From NCBI GenBank assembly GCA_030532425.1, contig JAUNLD010000011.1, positions 1 to 58,231 of the forward strand: a DNA stretch of 58,231 bases. The letters run 5' to 3'. Below the pieces are notes generated by a model, which was given only the letters and a program-made list of their open reading frames with translations, had not been told where the DNA came from and made no database searches. Source of the DNA: Lautropia sp. (GTDB lineage Bacteria; Pseudomonadota; Gammaproteobacteria; Burkholderiales; Burkholderiaceae_E). The stretch's first letter is position 1, and every line of letters starts with the position of its first letter. This document shows positions 2,609-34,792 of this stretch, one piece after another. Both the position numbers and the translations under genes were made by a program.

Positions 2609-3697
2609 TCACTGGATGCCGAGATCAGCCCCTGAGAGCGAGCGCAATGCCTGCTGACGGCCAGCCGGGATGGCCGGCGCACACAGGGCTTCGGAAACAT
2701 AGGCCTTGGTCAGCTGAACCTCGCCACGGTGCGCGGGCTGGTTGAGCGACTCGGTGACCAGGGCATCCACGCCCATCAGCCCCAGGCTGCCCTGCTGGTC
2801 GATCGCCATGATCATGTCATTGCACATCCGGTCGGCCTCGACGCAGCGGTTGCGCACCCGGTTGTACAGCTCGGGATCGACCGAGGCCCAGGTTTGAACC
2901 GGCTCCTTTTCAGAAGGCCTGGCCAGCTGGAGATAGCGGTCGCGGCTGAGTTCGCCCCCATTCTGGCGAACCTTTTCAACCCAGGCGTCGTAGTCCTTCT
3001 GCTCCAGCCCCAGGAAGTTGAAGCGCATGCCCGAGAAGCCGGCGCCACTGTAGTTGCCCGAATGGCCGAAATACTTGCCAGGCTTGTTGATGACCGCGTT
3101 GAGGTGACTTTCCATGCCGGGCATGGTGTAGATCATGCCGGCCAGCGCGGGGATGTAGAAGGTGTTCATCACGTTCGAGGACGTCATCTTGAACAGCACC
3201 GGACGGTCGACCGGGGCGGCCACCTCGTTGACCAGCGCGATCTTCTCTTCCGGATAGATGAACAGCCACTTCCAGTCCATGGCCACCACCTGGATCTCAA
3301 GCGGTTCGACCCCCGCCGGCACCGGCCGGTTGGCATCGATCTTTTCAAGCTTCTTGAAGGGATCGAGGCTGTAGCTGGTGATCCAGGTGATGACGGCCAG
3401 GATGGCGATGATGATGATGGGGATGACCCAGACGACGACCTCGATCTTCGTGGAGTGGTGCCAGTCCGGTTCGTAGCGTGCCGTGACGTTGCTGGCCCGG
3501 TAACGCCAGGCGAACCACAGCGTCAGGACGATGACCGGGATGACGACCAGCAGCATCAGGCCGGTCGAGAGGTAGATGAGGTCCCTCTGCTGCTCGGCGA
3601 TATAGCCGGAAGGGTTGAGGACGACGAGATCGCAGCCCGCCAACAGGAATGCGCTGGCCAGCAATGGCAGCAAACGTGATCGGATAGCTAATTTCAT
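2609..3697 (-). CDS. cyoA: Cytochrome o ubiquinol oxidase subunit II (lipoprotein)
   Basis: Subunit II of the bo3 quinol oxidase is a periplasmic cupredoxin-fold domain anchored by two helices and an N-terminal lipid. The 362 residues start with a signal peptide ending in the lipobox LLAGC (Cys22). Two transmembrane helices follow (around residues 40-65 and 85-110), then the cupredoxin domain with motifs such as VVAMDWKWLFIYPE and MNTFYIPALAGMIYTMPGM. Copper-A ligands are absent, as expected for a quinol rather than cytochrome c oxidase. It is the first gene of cyoABC, 100 bases before cyoB. It is divergent from the CorA-like gene, so the operon promoter should lie in 3698-3859. Confidence 0.96.
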   Translation of the reverse strand: MKLAIRSRLLPLLASAFLLAGCDLVVLNPSGYIAEQQRDLIYLSTGLMLLVVIPVIVLTLWFAWRYRASNVTARYEPDWHHSTKIEVVVWVIPIIIIAILAVITWITSYSLDPFKKLEKIDANRPVPAGVEPLEIQVVAMDWKWLFIYPEEKIALVNEVAAPVDRPVLFKMTSSNVMNTFYIPALAGMIYTMPGMESHLNAVINKPGKYFGHSGNYSGAGFSGMRFNFLGLEQKDYDAWVEKVRQNGGELSRDRYLQLARPSEKEPVQTWASVDPELYNRVRNRCVEADRMCNDMIMAIDQQGSLGLMGVDALVTESLNQPAHRGEVQLTKAYVSEALCAPAIPAGRQQALRSLSGADLGIQ

Positions 3698-24144: not shown

Positions 24145-24678
24145 TCAGCGGCATTCCGCCGGAGCAAAGCGCGGCTGCAACGTGCCCTTGGGCGCATCGG
24201 CTACCGACACCGCCGCCGGCAAGCGAGCCCCCGCCGCACGGCAATGCCAGACGATGGGCTCCGTCACCGGCGCAAAGGGACGACTGGCCACAGGCAGGCC
24301 CGCCTGCCCCACCACCGGCTGCAACACCAGCCGGTTCTGCCCGATGGGCGCCAGCCGCGGCGGATAGACGACGCTGACCACCCCCGATTCGGGCGTGATC
24401 TCGATCGACTGCACCTGGCGCGTGGGCGCCTGCCCCCCGTACCCGGTGGCATAGCCCTGTGCCAGAACCTGCCCCGCCGGCAACCCTGCCGCAGCCATCG
24501 ACGCCACGTGCGCCTGCGCCCCTGCCGCCAGCGTCAGCCCTTCCGTCACCTGCACGCGCACCGTGTAATCCTGGTACACCGGAATCGCCACCGCCGCCAC
24601 AATGCCCAGCATGGCCGCCCCGATCATCAGGTCGACCACCGTGAAACCCTGCTGCCCTTGCCCGCGCCTCATGCCCAT
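24145..24678 (-). CDS. Type IV pilin-like protein with Asp at position 5
   Basis: This 177-residue prepilin has a short basic leader MGMRRGQGQQG cleaved before Phe. The hydrophobic helix FTVVDLMIGAAMLGIVAAVA follows, then a globular domain with a C-terminal Cys pair (WHCRAAG and PAECR). The globular part matches the pilin at 32917-33444 (shared QGYATGY, VVLQP-like and RFAPAECR pieces), so the genes are paralogues. Mature residue 5, nearly always Glu in pilins and needed for assembly, is Asp here. It lies alone, about 7.5 kb from the other two pilins. It may be a minor or divergent pilin; the upstream in-frame start would disrupt the leader. Confidence 0.85.
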   Translation of the reverse strand: MGMRRGQGQQGFTVVDLMIGAAMLGIVAAVAIPVYQDYTVRVQVTEGLTLAAGAQAHVASMAAAGLPAGQVLAQGYATGYGGQAPTRQVQSIEITPESGVVSVVYPPRLAPIGQNRLVLQPVVGQAGLPVASRPFAPVTEPIVWHCRAAGARLPAAVSVADAPKGTLQPRFAPAECR

Positions 24679-26426: not shown

Positions 26427-27062
26427 TCAGTCTTCCAGCAAGGCGTCAAACTGCCTGGCTTCCATCCGCCGGCGACGCTCGTCAAGAATCTCGCCTTCGA
26501 ACATCCAGTAACTGGAGCCACTAACCACCTGGCTGCGATAGCCCAGTTGCTGCAAGATCTGGGCAGCCGCCGCAGAAAGGCTCATCTCCTGCCCCTGGCA
26601 ACTGACCCGGTTCCCCGGCAGTACGATGGCCGCGATGCTTTCGTCACGCGAGAACGTCAGCACATCGTCCGGCCTGATGCCGAGCGCATCCAGCGAGATT
26701 CTGGCACGACGTGTCTTTTCCTTCTCAAGCGTCTTCCGGTCTTCTTCATCATCCGCCACCACTCCAGGCGTCACCTCCTCAAAGCCGCCGATACTGAGAG
26801 CCAGCACCACCTTTTCCGGTTCGATGCGGAAGAACTCACGGCGCGGGTTCAGGCGATGCTCGGCAAACAGCTGGTGCAGGATGCTTTCCACCCGACGGCA
26901 GTCATCCACACGCGCAGCATAGTGGCATTCAAACGGCAGCGGCACACCCGTGCCCGCACTGAGATTTCGCATGCGGCTCTCGACCGACTCCGAAGCGGTC
27001 ATGCCGATCTTGACCAGCCCGGGCATGGCTTCGTTGGTCAGGACATAAACGATCTGGGACAT
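26427..27062 (-). CDS. GIY-YIG nuclease-family (T5orf172-like) protein
   Basis: The 211-residue product starts MSQIVYVLTNEAMPGLVKIG. This is the first strand and the modified GIY/YIG motif of the T5orf172/MUG113 branch (YVL near residue 5, KIGMT near residue 18). Arg30 (ESRMRNLSAGTG) and the later Glu55 (RVESILHQLFAEHRL) fit the catalytic Arg and Glu of the fold. The C-terminal 80 residues (LSAAAAQILQQLGY, then YWMFEGEIL) resemble DUF4357. Members occur in phages and accessory islands as nucleases or regulators. A GTG start four codons upstream is possible. The role here is unknown. Confidence 0.75.
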   Translation of the reverse strand: MSQIVYVLTNEAMPGLVKIGMTASESVESRMRNLSAGTGVPLPFECHYAARVDDCRRVESILHQLFAEHRLNPRREFFRIEPEKVVLALSIGGFEEVTPGVVADDEEDRKTLEKEKTRRARISLDALGIRPDDVLTFSRDESIAAIVLPGNRVSCQGQEMSLSAAAAQILQQLGYRSQVVSGSSYWMFEGEILDERRRRMEARQFDALLED

Positions 27063-27208
27063 GCTGGCCGACACCTACCAGGACGATGGTCAGATATTGA
27101 CTCGCGCAGTCTACGAAACAGCGTATGGGTTGCTGCCCCCCGGACGACAGACGCAACAAAACACGCGATGGCCGGCGTGCGTCGATTCCCCCTCCGGTCC
27201 AGGTCATC

Positions 27209-27463
27209 TGCCGTATTTTTGGCCATCTGGCCGATCTTCAAACCCGTGTCTACGGCCACAGCGTGCAGGGGCTGCTGGCGCAGGAGCCCGATCCCGAGTT
27301 GCAGCGCAAGTACCTGGACCTGATAGACAGCGCATTGCCACTTACCGATAATGAACGACAACAGTATGAGCGGGGGATCCCGCGGGAACGGCCCAGCTGG
27401 ATCACTGGGCCGAGCACATTCTGGATGCGGAGACGCTGGATGAGGTGTTCCGGGTGCATTGAC
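27209..27463 (+). pseudogene. Remnant of the Rpn nuclease cassette (copy A)
   Basis: Bases 27209-27247 resemble the flank at 28694-28733 just upstream of the intact rpn gene. Bases 27248-27379 are nearly identical to the intact gene at about 29376-29508 (YGHSVQGLLAQEPDPELQRK and on). After a junction, the last 50 or so bases match the 3' end (ETLDEVFR... then stop). Both the N-terminal nuclease half and most of the C-terminal helical region are gone, so this is a decayed copy. The sequence after the stop, to AAGGAGACA at 27511-27519, also matches the tail of the intact cassette (29802-29861). Confidence 0.8.
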
Positions 27464-27524
27464 TGAAGGCGGACGACGGCATCCAGACACCGTCTGCTAT
27501 CGACTTCATCAAGGAGACAGAATC

Positions 27525-28849: not shown

Positions 28850-29803
28850 ATGCCCATCAGCCATGACCAGAACTTCAAGAACCTGATTCTCGATTACCCG
28901 GTTCAGGCCCTGCAATTCTTCGCCCCCTCCGAAGCACCCGACGTGGGCGAGGACGTGCTCATCACCCCCATCCGGCAGGAGCAGCTCAAAGACCGGCTCA
29001 GCGACCGCTTCTTCGAACTGGACGTGCCGCTGATGCTCGAATGGCCTGACAAGCGCCGGGAGATCCTGCTCTTCGTGCTGGAGGAGCAAAGCGATCCTGA
29101 AAGGTTTTCCGCCCACAAGCTGGCTGGCTACTGCCTGAAGCTCGCCGAGCTGATGGAGACCGACCGGGTCGTGCCGGTGGTGATCTTTCTGCGCAGCGCC
29201 CGCGAGCCCCACAGGCTGCTCAGGCTTGGTTCCGAGCGCCAGTCCTTCCTCAGCTTCGAGTACCTGGCCGTCGGGCTGGATCGGCTGACGGCCGGGCAAC
29301 ACTTCCAGGCCACCAACATCGTGGCCCGGATCCTGCTGCCCCTGATGCGCCACGCGAAGCAGGAAAGGCCTCTTGTCTACGGCCACAGCGTGCAGGGGCT
29401 GCTGGCGCAGGAGCCCGATCCCGAGTTGCAGCGCAAGTACCTGGACCTGATAGACAGCGCATTGCCACTTACCGATAATGAACGACAACAGTATGAGCGG
29501 GCCTTCCCGCGGGAGCAGACCATCATGGCAACACTGAGCGAGCGGTGGAAGGCCGAGGGGATTCGGCAGGGGATGCAGCAGGGCCTCCAGCAAGGGCGTC
29601 AGCAAGGGCTGCAGGAGGGGCTGGCGCAGGGAGAGCAGGCAGGGCGGTATCAGATGCTGGCCCGGCAGCTGGAAAAGCGCTTTGGCGTGCTGGATGCCGA
29701 CACGGTGGCACGCCTGGCGGGGGCCTCGACGGCGCAGCTGGATCAGTGGGCCGAGCGGGTTCTGGATGCGGAGACGCTGGATGAGGTGTTCCGGGTGCAT
29801 TGA
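28850..29803 (+). CDS. Rpn-family recombination-promoting nuclease (intact copy B)
   Basis: Rpn proteins are PD-(D/E)XK nucleases, formerly called YhgA-like transposases, that raise recombination and have been linked to phage defence. The 317-residue product has the N-terminal HDQNFK motif and the nuclease core (Asp58 in FFELDVPLMLEW, and Glu78-x-Gln80 in LFVLEEQSD). A Gln/Gly-rich oligomerisation segment (IRQGMQQGLQQGRQQG) and a C-terminal DUF4351-like helix bundle (LARQLEKRFGVLDADTVARL) follow. Two further decayed copies flank it within 4 kb. A second possible start with its own ribosome binding site lies at codon 226. Confidence 0.88.
   Translation: MPISHDQNFKNLILDYPVQALQFFAPSEAPDVGEDVLITPIRQEQLKDRLSDRFFELDVPLMLEWPDKRREILLFVLEEQSDPERFSAHKLAGYCLKLAELMETDRVVPVVIFLRSAREPHRLLRLGSERQSFLSFEYLAVGLDRLTAGQHFQATNIVARILLPLMRHAKQERPLVYGHSVQGLLAQEPDPELQRKYLDLIDSALPLTDNERQQYERAFPREQTIMATLSERWKAEGIRQGMQQGLQQGRQQGLQEGLAQGEQAGRYQMLARQLEKRFGVLDADTVARLAGASTAQLDQWAERVLDAETLDEVFRVH
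29525..29803 (+). CDS. Candidate internal small protein in the Rpn gene
   Basis: An ATG at codon 226 of the Rpn gene is preceded by GGGAG with nine bases between them. In-frame translation would give 92 residues (MATLSERWKAEGIRQG to the shared stop): the oligomerisation segment and the DUF4351-like domain without the nuclease. In E. coli, smaller C-terminal products translated from inside rpn genes are reported to block the full-length nuclease. The identical site at 30720 in the orphan copy supports the idea. Expression is not shown. Confidence 0.4.
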   Translation: MATLSERWKAEGIRQGMQQGLQQGRQQGLQEGLAQGEQAGRYQMLARQLEKRFGVLDADTVARLAGASTAQLDQWAERVLDAETLDEVFRVH

Positions 29804-30449: not shown

Positions 30450-30998
30450 GATCCCGAAAGCTTTTCCGCCCACAAACTGGCCGGCTACTGCCTGAAGCTC
30501 GCCGAGCTGATGAAGACCGACCGGGTCGTGCTGCCCCTGATGCGCCACGCGAAGCAGGAAAGGCCTCTTGTCTACGGCCACAGCGTGCAGGGGCTGCTGG
30601 CGCAGGAGCCCGATCCCGAGTTGCAGCGCAAGTACCTGGACCTGATAGACAGCGCATTGCCACTTACCGATAATGAACGACAACAGTATGAGCGGGCCTT
30701 CCCGCGGGAGCAGACCATCATGGCAACACTGAGCGAGCGGTGGAAGGCCGAGGGGATTCGGCAGGGGATGCAGCAGGGCCTCCAGCAAGGGCGTCAGCAA
30801 GGGCTGCAGGAGGGGCTGGCGCAGGGAGAGCAGGCAGGGCGGTATCAGATGCTGGCCCGGCAGCTGGAAAAGCGCTTTGGCGTGCTGGATGCCGACACGG
30901 TGGCACGCCTGGCGGGGGCCTCGACGGCGCAGCTGGATCAGTGGGCCGAGCGGGTTCTGGATGCGGAGACGCTGGATGAGGTGTTCCGGGTGCATTGA
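30450..30998 (+). pseudogene. Truncated Rpn copy C (orphan C-terminal part)
   Basis: This copy lacks codons 1-81 of the intact gene and has an in-frame 162-base deletion (codons 109-162). It keeps codons 82-108 and 163-317. The nuclease residues Asp58, Glu78 and Gln80 are gone. The first 80 bases differ from the intact copy at several sites. From 30529 to the stop the two appear identical, about 470 bases, which indicates recent copying or gene conversion. An ATG at 30510 opens a 162-residue frame, and the internal start with GGGAG is kept at 30720 (92 residues). It could therefore still make a nuclease-free protein. Confidence 0.82.
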
Positions 30999-31278: not shown

Positions 31279-31500
31279 TTATCGAGCTTCCAACGGGAAC
31301 TTGCCTTCCCGGAAGAACTCATCAAGCTTGGTCCAGCTTGTTCGATGGCCCTGTTGAGCGTTCTTGGGGAACCAGACCACAGAACCATTGGAGACTTTCA
31401 GATCGCCGAACTTCTCGCCATCCCTCTTCACTTCGAAGACAACGTCAGCCTTGCCGAGATCGCGTTGAGGAATTGTAAATTTGACGTTGTGAGATGCCAT
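31279..31500 (-). CDS. Small conserved protein of unknown function
   Basis: The 73-residue product begins MASHNVKFTIPQRDLGKADV. It matches a widespread type of roughly 70-residue proteobacterial protein with an N-terminal strand pair (VVFEVKRDGEKFGDLKVSNG) and the core SNGSVVWFPKNAQQGHRTSW. Its function is not known. AAGGAAG precedes the ATG. An in-frame ATG lies 12 codons upstream. It lies between the Rpn copies and the pilin pair, in a stretch less GC-rich than its surroundings. Confidence 0.75.
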   Translation of the reverse strand: MASHNVKFTIPQRDLGKADVVFEVKRDGEKFGDLKVSNGSVVWFPKNAQQGHRTSWTKLDEFFREGKFPLEAR

Positions 31501-31551
31501 GAGGTGCTTCCTTGTGCGTTTCCCTTCAAACTTCAATTCGGAAATAGGCTA

Positions 31552-31581
31552 CACGCCAGGGCGCCGAAACGCCCTGGCGTG
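31552..31581. terminator. 12-bp hairpin between the pilin and the 73-residue gene
   Basis: CACGCCAGGGCG (31552-31563) pairs perfectly with CGCCCTGGCGTG (31570-31581) around a six-base loop. No U-tract follows on either strand. It lies downstream of the minus-strand pilin and could still act as a terminator or mRNA end stabiliser. Confidence 0.55.
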
Positions 31582-31654
31582 CAGGTGTCTAGCTTGTCCA
31601 GCAGCGTTGGTCAAACATGGCTGTGAACATGTACTGCTTCATGCTCGTCGTGGA

Positions 31655-32191
31655 TTAGCGGCACTCGGCGGGTGCGTGACGACCAGGCAGCGTACCTGCT
31701 GCACCAATCGTAAACTGCGTCGCATCTGCCGAACGGCAACGCCATTTGATCGAATCCTGAACCGGTGCAAAACCGCCAGCGGCTGCATCAGGCAGTGCCA
31801 CAGGATTAGCTTCCGTACCGGTGAACGGGACCAGCGTCAAGGAGTTTGCGTTGGCAGCAGCCACACGAGTCTGATACGCGATGGTGATCATCCCAGTTGC
31901 AGGAGTAATCCCAATCGAAGTGACGTTGGTCGATGCACCAGGACTTGCCCAGTTCGACTGGTAACCTGTCGTGCTGTTGTTACCTACTACGGCAGCATTG
32001 GAACCACCACCTGCGATCTCGCCCACATGCAGCTTGGCGGCGGCAGCCAGCGACAGACCTTCGGTGACCCGTGCGCGCACCGTGTAGTCCTGGTAAGCCG
32101 GGATGGCCACGGCGGCCAGGATGCCGATGATCGCAACCACGATCATCAGCTCGATCAGGGTGAAACCTTTTTGCACTTGTTTCAGCATCAT
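31655..32191 (-). CDS. Type IV major pilin (pilin 1)
   Basis: The 178-residue prepilin has leader MMLKQVQKG, cleavage before Phe, and the canonical assembly helix [20 protein letters not shown] with Glu5. A globular domain follows with a C-terminal Cys pair (WRCRSADA and PAECR). The first 53 or so codons, the leader and the promoter are identical to pilin 2, which is divergently oriented. The globular domain differs and is closer in style to Neisseria/Kingella-type pilins with Thr/Asn-rich loops. GGACAAGGAG precedes the ATG. A sigma54 promoter lies at 32288-32271. It encodes the subunit of a type IV pilus; assembly genes are elsewhere. Confidence 0.93.
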
Positions 32192-32312
32192 GTTGGGACT
32201 CCTTGTCCTCAGAGGTGATGAATTCGGGCTTTGCGTTTCGCTGACCCGGTCAGTTCAGACACCCTCCCTATAGCCAGCCCCGTGCCAACACCTCAATGCG
32301 GTTGGCGGGGGC
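32031..32312. repeat. Left arm of a 282-bp inverted repeat
   Basis: Its reverse complement matches 32796-33077 base for base by eye. It covers the first 53 or so codons of pilin 1, its 5' leader and its sigma54 promoter. Confidence 0.92.
32271..32288 (-). promoter_or_regulatory. Sigma54 promoter of pilin 1
   Basis: Reading the minus strand, TTGGCACGGGGCTGGCTA has GG and GC exactly 12 bases apart, matching TTGGCACG-N4-TTGC except one base. It lies about 80 bases before the ATG. Pilin genes under RpoN and PilR are well known. Confidence 0.8.
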
Positions 32313-32795
32313 TTTTTGTTTTTTTGAAGCGTGGGCGTAGGGCGCGGTGCCGGGTGGGCAGCAGCCGAAGCGGATGTCACCGGGGCCGAGAACGTGGGGC
32401 GTGTGGTGGCCGGCGTCGATGTCCGCCAAAGGGTTTGCGGGGCATCGCGATCGCTTCGATGAGCAACACCTGTCGCGCGCTGTGTTGAGACATCGGCAGC
32501 ATGCGGCGGGTGTTTTGCCTCAAGTGGCGGATGTGTTCACCGATGCGATCCGCCATCGATGGTGCGTTTTTGCACACCGGGCTTCTGGAGGCTCGCGCTT
32601 GTGGCATCGATCTCGCGCGCGTGCCCTCACTGACGTTTTCTCAGGGGCCGCAAAACGTCAGCAGGTGACGCAACACGTCACCTTGCACGGGTGTTGTTGT
32701 CCAGCCACGTCATCGCCCGTGCCAGCTGAATGGTTGGCGGCGGCTGCCGATCCGTGACGCAGTGCACACGGGAAAACCCGCGCTGCCGTTTGTCG
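32313..32795. other. 483-bp spacer between the pilin inverted repeats
   Basis: No convincing gene is present. The left end is an A/T tract (TTTTTGTTTTTTT, 32313-32325) directly upstream of the pilin 1 promoter; the right end has no such tract. Palindromes lie at 32526-32554 and 32630-32683. On the plus strand, the left arm end (GCCCC...GTTGGCGGGGGC) folds into a hairpin running into this T tract and could stop transcription entering the spacer. The spacer should carry the activator sites of both pilin promoters. Confidence 0.6.
32630..32683. promoter_or_regulatory. Two adjacent palindromes, candidate activator sites
   Basis: CTGACGTTTT (32630-32639) pairs with AAAACGTCAG (32652-32661). AGGTGACG (32663-32670) pairs with CGTCACCT (32676-32683). 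They lie 137-190 bases upstream of the pilin 2 sigma54 promoter, a usual distance for an enhancer-binding protein, and about 340 bases or more from the pilin 1 promoter. Confidence 0.45.
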
Positions 32796-33077
32796 GCCCC
32801 CGCCAACCGCATTGAGGTGTTGGCACGGGGCTGGCTATAGGGAGGGTGTCTGAACTGACCGGGTCAGCGAAACGCAAAGCCCGAATTCATCACCTCTGAG
32901 GACAAGGAGTCCCAACATGATGCTGAAACAAGTGCAAAAAGGTTTCACCCTGATCGAGCTGATGATCGTGGTTGCGATCATCGGCATCCTGGCCGCCGTG
33001 GCCATCCCGGCTTACCAGGACTACACGGTGCGCGCACGGGTCACCGAAGGTCTGTCGCTGGCTGCCGCCGCCAAGCT
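32796..33077. repeat. Right arm of the 282-bp inverted repeat
   Basis: This is the reverse complement of 32031-32312. It holds the pilin 2 promoter, leader and first 53 or so codons, and ends where the two pilin sequences diverge (AAGCT). Confidence 0.92.
32820..32836 (+). promoter_or_regulatory. Sigma54 promoter of pilin 2
   Basis: TTGGCACGGGGCTGGCT has the -24 GG and -12 GC at the correct spacing, 80 bases before the ATG. It is identical to the pilin 1 promoter because it lies inside the repeat. Confidence 0.8.
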
Positions 33078-33444
33078 CAACGTGGCGGAAATTGCTGCCG
33101 GTGGTGCGAATGCTGCGGCTGACCTGCCGCAGGGCTATGCCACGGGTTACACCTCGCCCACTGCGTCGAACAATGTGCAGGGCGTTGCCATCGCTGCCAA
33201 CACCGGTGTCATTACGATTACCTATCAGCCGCGTGTGGCTGCCGATGGTTCCAACACGGTTGTTCTGCAACCGTATTCGGGGGCTGCCGGTCTGCCTGCT
33301 GCCAACGCAGCATTTGCACCGGTTCAGGATTCGGTGAAATGGCGTTGCCGTGCAAAAGGTGCCAAGTTGCCGACGGGTGTGACGATTGCGAGTGCTCCCG
33401 AGGGCACGCTGGAAAGCCGCTTCGCCCCCGCCGAGTGCCGCTGA
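32917..33444 (+). CDS. Type IV major pilin (pilin 2)
   Basis: The 175-residue prepilin has the same leader and helix as pilin 1 (MMLKQVQKG, then [20 protein letters not shown]). Its own globular domain includes [20 protein letters not shown] and the Cys pair WRCRAKG/PAECR. The C-terminal domain is closer to the third pilin (24145-24678) than to pilin 1. GGACAAGGAGTCCC precedes the ATG. Two strong hairpins follow the gene. It points away from pilin 1, each with its own identical sigma54 promoter. Either gene could supply the main pilus subunit. Confidence 0.93.
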
Positions 33445-33495
33445 TCCGCAGCACGCCTGAGCAGGTTCCAGGCATCACGCGGTACCGTAGTGCGG

Positions 33496-33572
33496 GCGAT
33501 CAGGCAGGTGTCAGCGCCTGATCGCCCTCGCAAGACAAACGCCCCCAAAGGCTCTGCCTGAGGGGGCGTTTG
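33496..33572 (+). terminator. Tandem hairpins after pilin 2
   Basis: GCGATCAGGC (33496-33505) pairs with GCCTGATCGC (33516-33525). CAAACGCCCCC (33536-33546) pairs with GGGGGCGTTTG (33562-33572). Both are perfect stems 50-130 bases after the pilin 2 stop. They should end and stabilise an abundant mRNA. Confidence 0.75.
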
Positions 33573-33683
33573 CGTTGGGAGGTGTGGCCATGGGCCTGCT
33601 GGCTGGCCGGGGTGGCATGGGGGTCTGTTGGGCCCCCTCTGGGGGCCTGACCAGGCGGGAGGGGGAACCGCGCCGCAGGCGTG

Positions 33684-33710
33684 GGGGAACCCTGCAAGGG
33701 TTCCCCTTTT
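33684..33710 (+). terminator. Rho-independent terminator
   Basis: GGGGAACCCT (33684-33693), a three-base loop, AGGGTTCCCC (33697-33706) and TTTT follow. It is a second stop for plus-strand transcripts ahead of the convergent PIN gene. No gene is seen in 33445-33752. Confidence 0.7.
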
Positions 33711-33752
33711 ACGCGCGGGCCGGTTTTGGCTCTGTTTACATTTTGTAATTTT

Positions 33753-34328
33753 TCAGAGGATCAGCCGGTAGCCGGACAGGATGCGGGCGGTGTGCTCCAG
33801 GCCCTGCCGGTGGAGGATGTCGAGATAGCGGTCGACATCGATGGGCGGGTTGCGGAGCTGGGCACGCTGGCGCTGGGCGGCCGACACCACGGCGCAGATG
33901 TCCAGGTCGATCAGGTCTTCGACGAATTCATCGGGGTGCAGGGCCTCGATCCCGAAGGGTGCCAGGGTCGATTCGGGAAAGTCCTTCTGGTTGAAGGTGA
34001 CGATGACGCCCGCGCCGCAGCGGATGGCGGCGGCCAGTACGTGCCGGTCGCCGGGGTCTGGCAGGCTGAGCCCGGGGATCAGCGATTCGTATTCGTCGAC
34101 GAGGGCATCGGGGATGGCGCGTTCCATCGCGGCGGATGCGCGGTCGAGCTGCGCCGGGGGGATGTCGGGACGCCGCTCGCACAGGCTGCTTTTCCATTCC
34201 TCCCGGATGTCGGCACTCCAGCGGGCCCGGAAGCATCCGCTCAGGCCCAGCCACATCAGGAAATCGCGCAGCGGTGCCGGAAACAGGACGCAGGCATCGT
34301 AGAGCACCGTAAACGAGGAACTCCTCAT
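33753..34328 (-). CDS. PIN-domain toxin (VapC-like)
   Basis: The 191-residue product begins MRSSSFTVLYDACVLFPAPL. It carries PIN-domain acidic residues: Asp11 (LYDACVLF), Glu44 (REEWKSSL) and Asp91/Asp94 (LPDPGDRHVLAAAI), with the last strand VIVTFNQKDFP. PIN toxins are Mg2+-dependent RNases. The longer length and C-terminal extension fit the COG1569-like or PIN_3 group rather than small VapC. Its ATG overlaps the stop of the HTH gene upstream by four bases, so the pair is coupled as a toxin-antitoxin operon. Confidence 0.85.
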   Translation of the reverse strand: MRSSSFTVLYDACVLFPAPLRDFLMWLGLSGCFRARWSADIREEWKSSLCERRPDIPPAQLDRASAAMERAIPDALVDEYESLIPGLSLPDPGDRHVLAAAIRCGAGVIVTFNQKDFPESTLAPFGIEALHPDEFVEDLIDLDICAVVSAAQRQRAQLRNPPIDVDRYLDILHRQGLEHTARILSGYRLIL

Positions 34329-34792
34329 TCGTAGCCCATTCCCAGCGTTTGGGCCTGTTCGGCCAGTTCGCCCATGGCTTCTTCGCTGGCCCGTTGTCGG
34401 GCATCCCGGAATGCCATCACGTCGGCAAAGCGCACGCGCCGATGGCGCCCGGTGCGGTGGAAAGGCAGCTGGCCATCTTCCAGCAGCTTGACCAGGTGCG
34501 GCCGGGAGACGTTGAGCAGGTCGGCGGCTTCCTGGGTGGTCAGCTCGGCATGTACCGGCACAACCTTGACGGCATTGCCGTCGGCCAGTTCCGAGAGGAT
34601 GTCCATCAGCAGGCGAAGGGCCGACATCGGCAGTTCGACCTGATGGCTGCGGTTGTGCTTGTCAAAGATCTGGATGTGCTGGATGTCGGCATGGGTGGCC
34701 AGATAGGCAGCCAGCGCACGTTGTCCCTGGATGGCGGCCTGGACCTCCTGGGCCGCGGGCAGTGTCATGTTGGCCTGAGCAGAGGTCGGCAT
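34325..34792 (-). CDS. HTH (excisionase-type) antitoxin
   Basis: The 155-residue product has a C-terminal MerR/excisionase-type helix-turn-helix: LTTQEAADLLNVSRPHLVKL, then LEDGQLPFHRTGRHRRVRFA. The N-terminal half (VQAAIQGQRALAAYLATHAD, HIQIFDKHNRSHQVELPMSA) fits the antitoxin group paired with PIN proteins. It would bind the toxin and its own promoter. A double TTCGAA site lies 37 bases upstream of the ATG. A second ATG eight codons in is possible. Confidence 0.83.
   Translation of the reverse strand: MPTSAQANMTLPAAQEVQAAIQGQRALAAYLATHADIQHIQIFDKHNRSHQVELPMSALRLLMDILSELADGNAVKVVPVHAELTTQEAADLLNVSRPHLVKLLEDGQLPFHRTGRHRRVRFADVMAFRDARQRASEEAMGELAEQAQTLGMGYE

Follow-up and report, generated by a model that had tools for sequence, protein, structure and literature searches.

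Several described systems rearrange DNA at genes for pilins or other surface proteins, and they are drawn on here, from excerpts of the cited reports, as background to a pair of head-to-head type IV pilin genes in Lautropia sp. The pair lies in a contig of 58,231 nucleotides (nt), called the window (GenBank assembly GCA_030532425.1, contig JAUNLD010000011.1, positions 1 to 58,231 of the forward strand). Moraxella bovis and M. lacunata have a site-specific inversion system that acts on pilin genes (PMC4073114). In Lactobacillus acidophilus, chromosomal inversion or recombination brings one of the surface-protein paralogues slpA and slpB to expression (PMC7858073), and an inversion or recombination selects the expressed S-layer paralogue at the sap locus of Campylobacter fetus (PMC3887049). 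Non-expressed pilS cassettes of Neisseria donate segments to pilE, aided by G4 and Sma/Cla sequences (PMC4023411). PilA1 and PilA2 of Legionella pneumophila differ along the whole protein, with about 72% identity (PMC13170364).

The Lautropia pair resembles each of these systems in part. As in the Moraxella Piv system, where inversion of DNA decides between two type IV pilin genes (PMC4073114), an inversion may determine the choice between the Lautropia pilins. Unlike the Moraxella genes, both Lautropia pilins are complete and have a core promoter of their own, and it is the spacer between them that could flip. In Moraxella the promoter lies outside the invertible segment and the alternative pilin ends are promoterless; this is not the arrangement in Lautropia, where a −24/−12 site lies inside each of two identical inverted arms. 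The slpA/slpB and sap loci are alike in that they involve surface-protein paralogues and in that inversion or recombination decides expression, as is proposed for Lautropia; they are unlike in that the Lautropia proteins are pilins rather than S-layer proteins, and in that a σ54-type promoter lies inside each repeat so that only an upstream element would flip. The recombining parts of C. fetus sap are identical 5′ ends, and the process is RecA-dependent. Homologous recombination between pilin copies is a likeness to Neisseria pilE/pilS (PMC4023411). The Lautropia pair, unlike Neisseria, exchanges the constant part, and both copies are complete genes with start, leader and promoter instead of silent partial cassettes that lack promoter or start. 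The Neisseria pilin has a constant start and a variable rest. Legionella PilA1/PilA2 likewise comprise two related type IV pilins at one locus, and identical inverted arms, the distinguishing feature of the Lautropia pair, go unmentioned for them in the excerpt of that report (PMC13170364). The Lautropia layout was undescribed among the matches listed in openly licensed PubMed Central literature, where those listed for Lautropia and pilin were microbiome studies only. The best explanation of the locus, to which we give about even weight for and against, is an enhancer flip by homologous recombination between the arms of the head-to-head pair.

The two genes are separated by a 483-base-pair (bp) spacer between the arms, and their features, with protein lengths in amino acids (aa) and expectation values (E) for Pfam matches, are as follows.

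31655..32191, minus strand: pilin 1 (178 aa), type IV major-pilin type (PF00114, E 6.2e-12; PF07963, E 2.6e-10)
32917..33444, plus strand: pilin 2 (175 aa), type IV major-pilin type (PF00114, E 1.8e-15; PF07963, E 3e-10)
32031..32312, minus strand: left arm, 121 bp upstream and 161 bp of coding start of pilin 1, 282/282 identity to the right arm
32796..33077, plus strand: right arm, 121 bp upstream and 161 bp of coding start of pilin 2, 282/282 identity to the left arm
32273..32287, minus strand: σ54-type −24/−12 site of pilin 1, TGGCAC-N7-GC, by pattern and GG/GC spacing
32821..32835, plus strand: σ54-type −24/−12 site of pilin 2, TGGCAC-N7-GC, by pattern and GG/GC spacing

Both proteins exceed the curated Pfam cut-offs for type IV pilins (PF00114 and PF07963), and pili and pilins were the top solved-structure matches of pilin 2, the only query used. 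A first-pass annotation of this DNA had described apparently identical 282-bp inverted arms that include the promoters and the first 53 codons; exact alignment bears this out, with the first mismatch at arm position 283 and an exact tract of 121 nt upstream of the ATG and 161 nt of coding sequence (53 codons and 2 nt). A repeat search of the window returned an inverted repeat of 321 nt at 96%, with 483 nt separating its arms. Pilins 1 and 2 differ at 0/27 shared fourfold sites in codons 1–47 and at 18/48 after them, and judged by this contrast the identity of the arms exceeds chance. The annotation's statement that the globular domains "differ fully" does not hold: 117 of their residues align at 55% identity, and weak DNA similarity persists between these regions (repeats I2, I3, and I5). 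Because of the 55% identity beyond the arm, pilins 1 and 2 are paralogues and not unrelated domains.

The annotated σ54 promoter in each arm stood in its main lines, in that TGGCAC-N7-GC occurs with GG/GC spacing, but the −12 box is imperfect and deviates from TTGC. The sequence TGGCACGG within the −24/−12 site is invariant in all 8 of the 8 aligned upstream regions of the genus. A strict σ54 pattern with TTGC had no match in the arms, its one other site being in locus L038, and it was dropped in favor of TGGCAC-N7-GC; no σ70 promoter was found in 31500–33700. Since TGGCAC is followed by an in-phase GC and the genome encodes RpoN and an activator, the sites have the makings of a σ54-dependent pilin promoter and are predicted to act as such. 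That genome (G000) is a 3.1-Mb draft in 125 contigs with a listed completeness of 88.78%, and among its own matches of the arm and of pilin 1, in this incomplete genome, there were no partial pilin copies beside the pair.

A pilin match at E 1e-10 or better was found in six of the nine genomes of the genus; pilin 2 had no match at that threshold in G001 (97% complete) or G006 (94%). The head-to-head layout recurs in one of the five other pilin-bearing genomes, that of a second species (G005, locus L037), with pilin A at 2004–2504 on the minus strand and pilin B at 3050–3571 on the plus strand. The G005 arms (L037 2362–2628 and 2926–3192) are again identical, over 267/267 positions (124 upstream and 143 coding), and flank a spacer of 297 bp, vs. 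483 bp in G000. Three landmarks relate the two loci.

31279..31536, minus strand: orf85, left-flank landmark downstream of pilin 1 (41% over 68 aa to L037 1933–1730, E 9e-16)
26427..27074, minus strand: T5orf172 gene (PF10544), second left-flank landmark (77% over 206 aa to L037 961–344)
33498..33744, plus strand: conserved block downstream of pilin 2, right-flank landmark (74% over 255 nt to L037 3594–3841, E 3e-36)

Because landmarks match on both flanks (orf85 itself has no Pfam family), pilin 1 is the positional counterpart of A and pilin 2 that of B. Within each species the arms agree completely, and between species they do not: at shared fourfold sites of codons 1–47, A and B differ at 0/25, vs. 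9/23 for pilin 2 and B, and after codon 47 the same pairs differ at 22/33 and 23/51; the noncoding part of the arm is identical within species at 121/121 (G000) and 124/124 (G005) positions, vs. 90/111 aligned positions with 23 gap columns between species. In a tree of globular domains, that of B joins the pilins of G003 and G007 (local support 0.997), apart from A, and the N-terminal parts of A and B are identical despite this separate grouping. Identity within species set against divergence between them, which a recent plain duplication would not give, points to repeated recombination. Comparison of the two species thus shows that recurrent homologous recombination between the inverted arms maintains the identity of the promoter regions and of the first 47–53 codons; the ongoing conversion or inversion proposed in the first-pass annotation is well supported, G005 having the same layout with its own exactly identical arms and an apparently inverted spacer.

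As a control, 20 same-strand pilin pairs of relatives were compared, a set that misses at least the pilin on contig C195 of G003 and the second G012 pilin (both passed over by the pilin motif search), and no such tract was present, with the one exception of a near-identical duplicate in G013 (100% identity in codons 1–46, 99% after). Removal of nine duplicate loci left a wider, partly redundant set of 175, which still overlap in part. Only 2 of its 106 adjacent pairs are head to head, namely those of G000 and G005, and an exact match of over 60 bases occurs in 7 of its 104 same-strand rows, apparently three distinct places counted repeatedly. The listings of 74 genomes of the family (E 1e-16) and 150 of the order (E 1e-18) held no further adjacent opposite-strand pair, some of which contig ends and cut-offs may hide; one scan of genome contigs covered the best 80 of 569 matches.

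The arm extends 25 bp past the −24 box (23 bp in G005), so an upstream activator site would fall in the spacer. A candidate for such a site is present there.

32665..32680, no strand assigned: palindrome GTGACGCAACACGTCA, a candidate activator site whose distance to the −24 box is 156 nt for pilin 2 and 394 nt for pilin 1

The palindrome is of the GTGAC/GTCA type and was searched for as [GC]TGAC-N4-8-[CA]GTCA in 12 upstream regions, with four further pilins of the genus examined separately. It stands 154–156 nt upstream of the −24 box of pilin 2, pilin A, the first G002 pilin, the pilin on contig C111 of G003, and those of G007 and G008; the distance is 394 nt for pilin 1 and 206 nt for B. Six of the eight genus pilins with this promoter therefore have the palindrome at the usual distance, and the exceptions are one per head-to-head pair, syntenically opposite. 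The four pilins taken separately (a third pilin of the window, G002 copies 2 and 3, and the G003 C195 pilin) have no palindrome, and no promoter pattern apart from a −209 site in G002 copy 3. On one strand of about 122 kb there are 8 palindrome sites, and among 29 TGGCAC-N7-GC sites in seven loci a palindrome lies 130–165 nt upstream at those six pilin promoters only. Each pair, then, has one conserved, putatively activator-binding palindrome, which keeps the usual distance of 155 bp to the −24 box of one pilin but lies farther away from the other's. Similar GTGAC/GTCA palindromes, two each, are found upstream of pilins in G012, G022, G030, and G031, from other genera of the family; those of G012 and G031 are at other distances from the −24 box, and the G022 and G030 upstream regions gave no proper −24/−12 site as a reference for distance.

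The genome encodes PilB as well as RpoN, and its σ54-activator matches number three strong and four weak above the cut-off. The strong ones are NtrC, a GAF-domain protein, and a response regulator adjoining a histidine kinase; this last pair passed no NCBIfam cut-off among the 25 listed of 115 families and is not NtrC. The activator is probably PilR, which with σ54 activates pilin genes in Pseudomonas (PMC6058289) and Kingella (PMC9592894). Hallmarks of Pseudomonas PilR sites are TGTN11AGA and GTCT (PMC6058289); the G000 spacer has one of each and the G005 spacer none and four, respectively, in no clear arrangement. Both spacers hold few of these hallmarks, and none of them falls on the palindrome.

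The orientation of the spacer was assessed from its sides and edges, which in G000 comprise the following.

32313..32795, no strand assigned: spacer, 483 bp, the sole segment inverted by an arm–arm crossover
32639..32794, plus strand: alpha region on the side of pilin 2, upstream sequence conserved in the genus (E 2.3e-19 with an nhmmer profile of four other species)
32783..32795, plus strand: alpha edge of the spacer adjoining the right arm, matching the edge on the pilin A side of G005 and not that on the B side
32313..32326, minus strand: beta edge of the spacer (A7-C-A5, read on the strand of pilin 1), adjoining the left arm and matching the edge on the pilin B side of G005

The upstream profile (built from G002, G003, G007, and G008) matches the pilin 2 side at E 2.3e-19 and the pilin A side at E 2.3e-11; the pilin 1 and B sides were not listed with this long profile, and a short one gave E 1.9 or worse. 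Aligned singly, the pilin 2 side matches all four species (0/300 shuffles as high), and the A side is clear only with G008, at a score of 44 (0/300). When the G000 and G005 spacers are aligned with one inverted, the score is 24 vs. a shuffle mean of 14.4 (1/500 as high); the direct orientation, at 14, was no better than shuffles (313/500 as high) and was rejected. The 25-nt edges likewise agree crosswise, with scores of 11 for pilin 1 and B (0.0002 of 5000 random 25-mers as high) and 9 for pilin 2 and A (about 0.01), vs. 4 for pilin 1 and A and 5 for pilin 2 and B; the A7-C-A5 site of the beta edge is unique in the window. Relative to the flanks, the spacers of these related genomes appear to lie in opposite orientation, though misassembly, or loss of the site from opposite sides, could give the same picture. 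The attachment of the palindrome to opposite pilins in landmark-matched species strongly suggests a flip of the spacer in one lineage or in both.

Under the proposed enhancer flip, crossovers between the arms would homogenize them and simultaneously invert the spacer alone, for which general recombination would suffice. Inversion of the spacer would shift the activator-like palindrome from one pilin to the other. The pilin that has the σ54 activator, probably PilR, at the usual distance of ~155 bp would thereby change, and this distance may in turn bias which pilin is made; that a flip biases pilin choice is what we infer from the placement of the site. A crossover cannot swap promoters, because the σ54-type core promoter lies inside each arm, and a promoter-swapping crossover between the pilins was rejected on this ground. 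The two-subunit switch of the first-pass annotation could thus operate through the spacer palindrome near one pilin, but not by moving a promoter: each arm would keep its core promoter and only the 483-bp spacer would flip. Tentatively, and with somewhat more doubt than confidence, the locus may be an invertase-free pilin-choice switch, in which ordinary homologous recombination flips a single enhancer between two divergent σ54 pilin promoters. That exchange would also preserve the identity of the promoters and assembly helices, so that one assembly machine could take up both pilins. If this holds, pilin variation needs no more than general recombination: the core promoter sits within the recombining repeat, and an upstream activator site is all that changes sides. 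The locus would then offer a natural test of how strictly σ54 activators depend on distance. The arms themselves are a clear bacterial case of concerted evolution confined to promoter and assembly helix, with the exposed domains diverging.

A number of observations weigh against the enhancer flip. σ54 activators can act at a distance, so that the far gene may stay active with the site 206 or 394 bp away; PilR was identified by elimination; and GTGACGN5CGTCA is not clearly enriched genome-wide, with 7 strand hits vs. 4 for the reversed control, on which count a large regulon of such sites was rejected. The A side of the G005 spacer aligns weakly with G007 and G003 (16 each; 7/300 and 18/300 shuffles as high) and does not match G002 (10), and past the edge the beta sides of G000 and G005 are unlike. 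One flank gene, DUF4351, which the genus has in multiple copies, disagrees with the other landmarks, since its copies are to the left of the pilins in G000 and to the right in G005. The sister species G008 has a single pilin in another context, where similarity to the left flank of the window is confined to 68 nt; as G005 groups with G008 in an FtsY tree (7 of the 9 genomes, support 81), the locus has at least once been gained, lost or relocated. The comparison used a single genome per species, and no strain was seen in both orientations. Both genomes are drafts (about 70 contigs in G005), and short-read assembly can misplace the orientation of a spacer within a 267–282 bp inverted repeat.

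The last of these points bears on a very improbable alternative, an assembly artefact in which similar arms were merged to one consensus or the orientation of the spacer is arbitrary. Hairpin repeats are hard for short reads, but two separate records have the same layout with different arm sequences and different spacer lengths, and each contig passes through both arms. More serious, though on balance unlikely, is the view that gene conversion alone has homogenized the arms as a by-product of their closeness and inverted order, that both pilins are expressed, and that the spacer was once palindromic and lost its activator site on one side in one lineage and on the other side in the other. The halves of the G005 spacer are related to each other (33 vs. 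a shuffle mean of 10.2, 0/500 as high), as expected of an old, decaying inverted duplication, and an ancestral palindrome losing opposite halves could mimic inversion; moreover, the palindrome is just 206 nt from the B promoter and may serve both genes. Decay alone does not predict the A-rich beta edge common to pilin 1 and B, however, given how rarely random 25-mers score as high, and the pilin 1 side of the G000 spacer has no similarity to the pilin 2 side (no better than shuffles, 136/500 as high).

Two further explanations were weighed. In one, the arms arose twice, by separate recent inverted duplications, and in each case one globular domain was then exchanged for one transferred from elsewhere. 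This would account for exact identity, which is what a fresh duplication leaves, and the pilin loci of relatives do include recent duplicates such as that of G013; we consider this improbable nonetheless, as the common layout and the landmarks on both flanks in two species point to one old locus, whose exact tracts end at nearly the same places (121 + 161 vs. 124 + 143). Least probable of all is that a dedicated invertase acts at specific sites, as on the pilin genes of Moraxella; the combination of two pilins and an invertible element would suit this. The usual recombinase site is far shorter than the 267–282 bp of the exact tract, and no recombinase family was detected among 39 distinct open reading frames scanned in the window, the other frames and the remainder of the genome lying outside that scan.

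Other genes around the pair include the third pilin of the window (24145–24678, minus strand), 7 kb away, which has an altered leader/helix start, GFTVVDL, and no PF07963 match; it adjoins a trehalase gene, as does its likely counterpart, the C195 pilin of G003. Copies or fragments of a DUF4351 gene (PF14261) occupy 28850–29803, 30510–30998, and 27210–27519, with two 478-nt stretches 99.6% identical, and a ParE-type toxin domain (PF05016; 29885–30313, minus strand) lies between two of the copies. Related DUF4351 copies are found near the pilins of G005, G003, and G007, with weaker fragments near those of G002. Just past pilin 2, at 33753–34792 on the minus strand, PIN-domain and HTH_17 genes overlap by four bases in a toxin-antitoxin-like arrangement.
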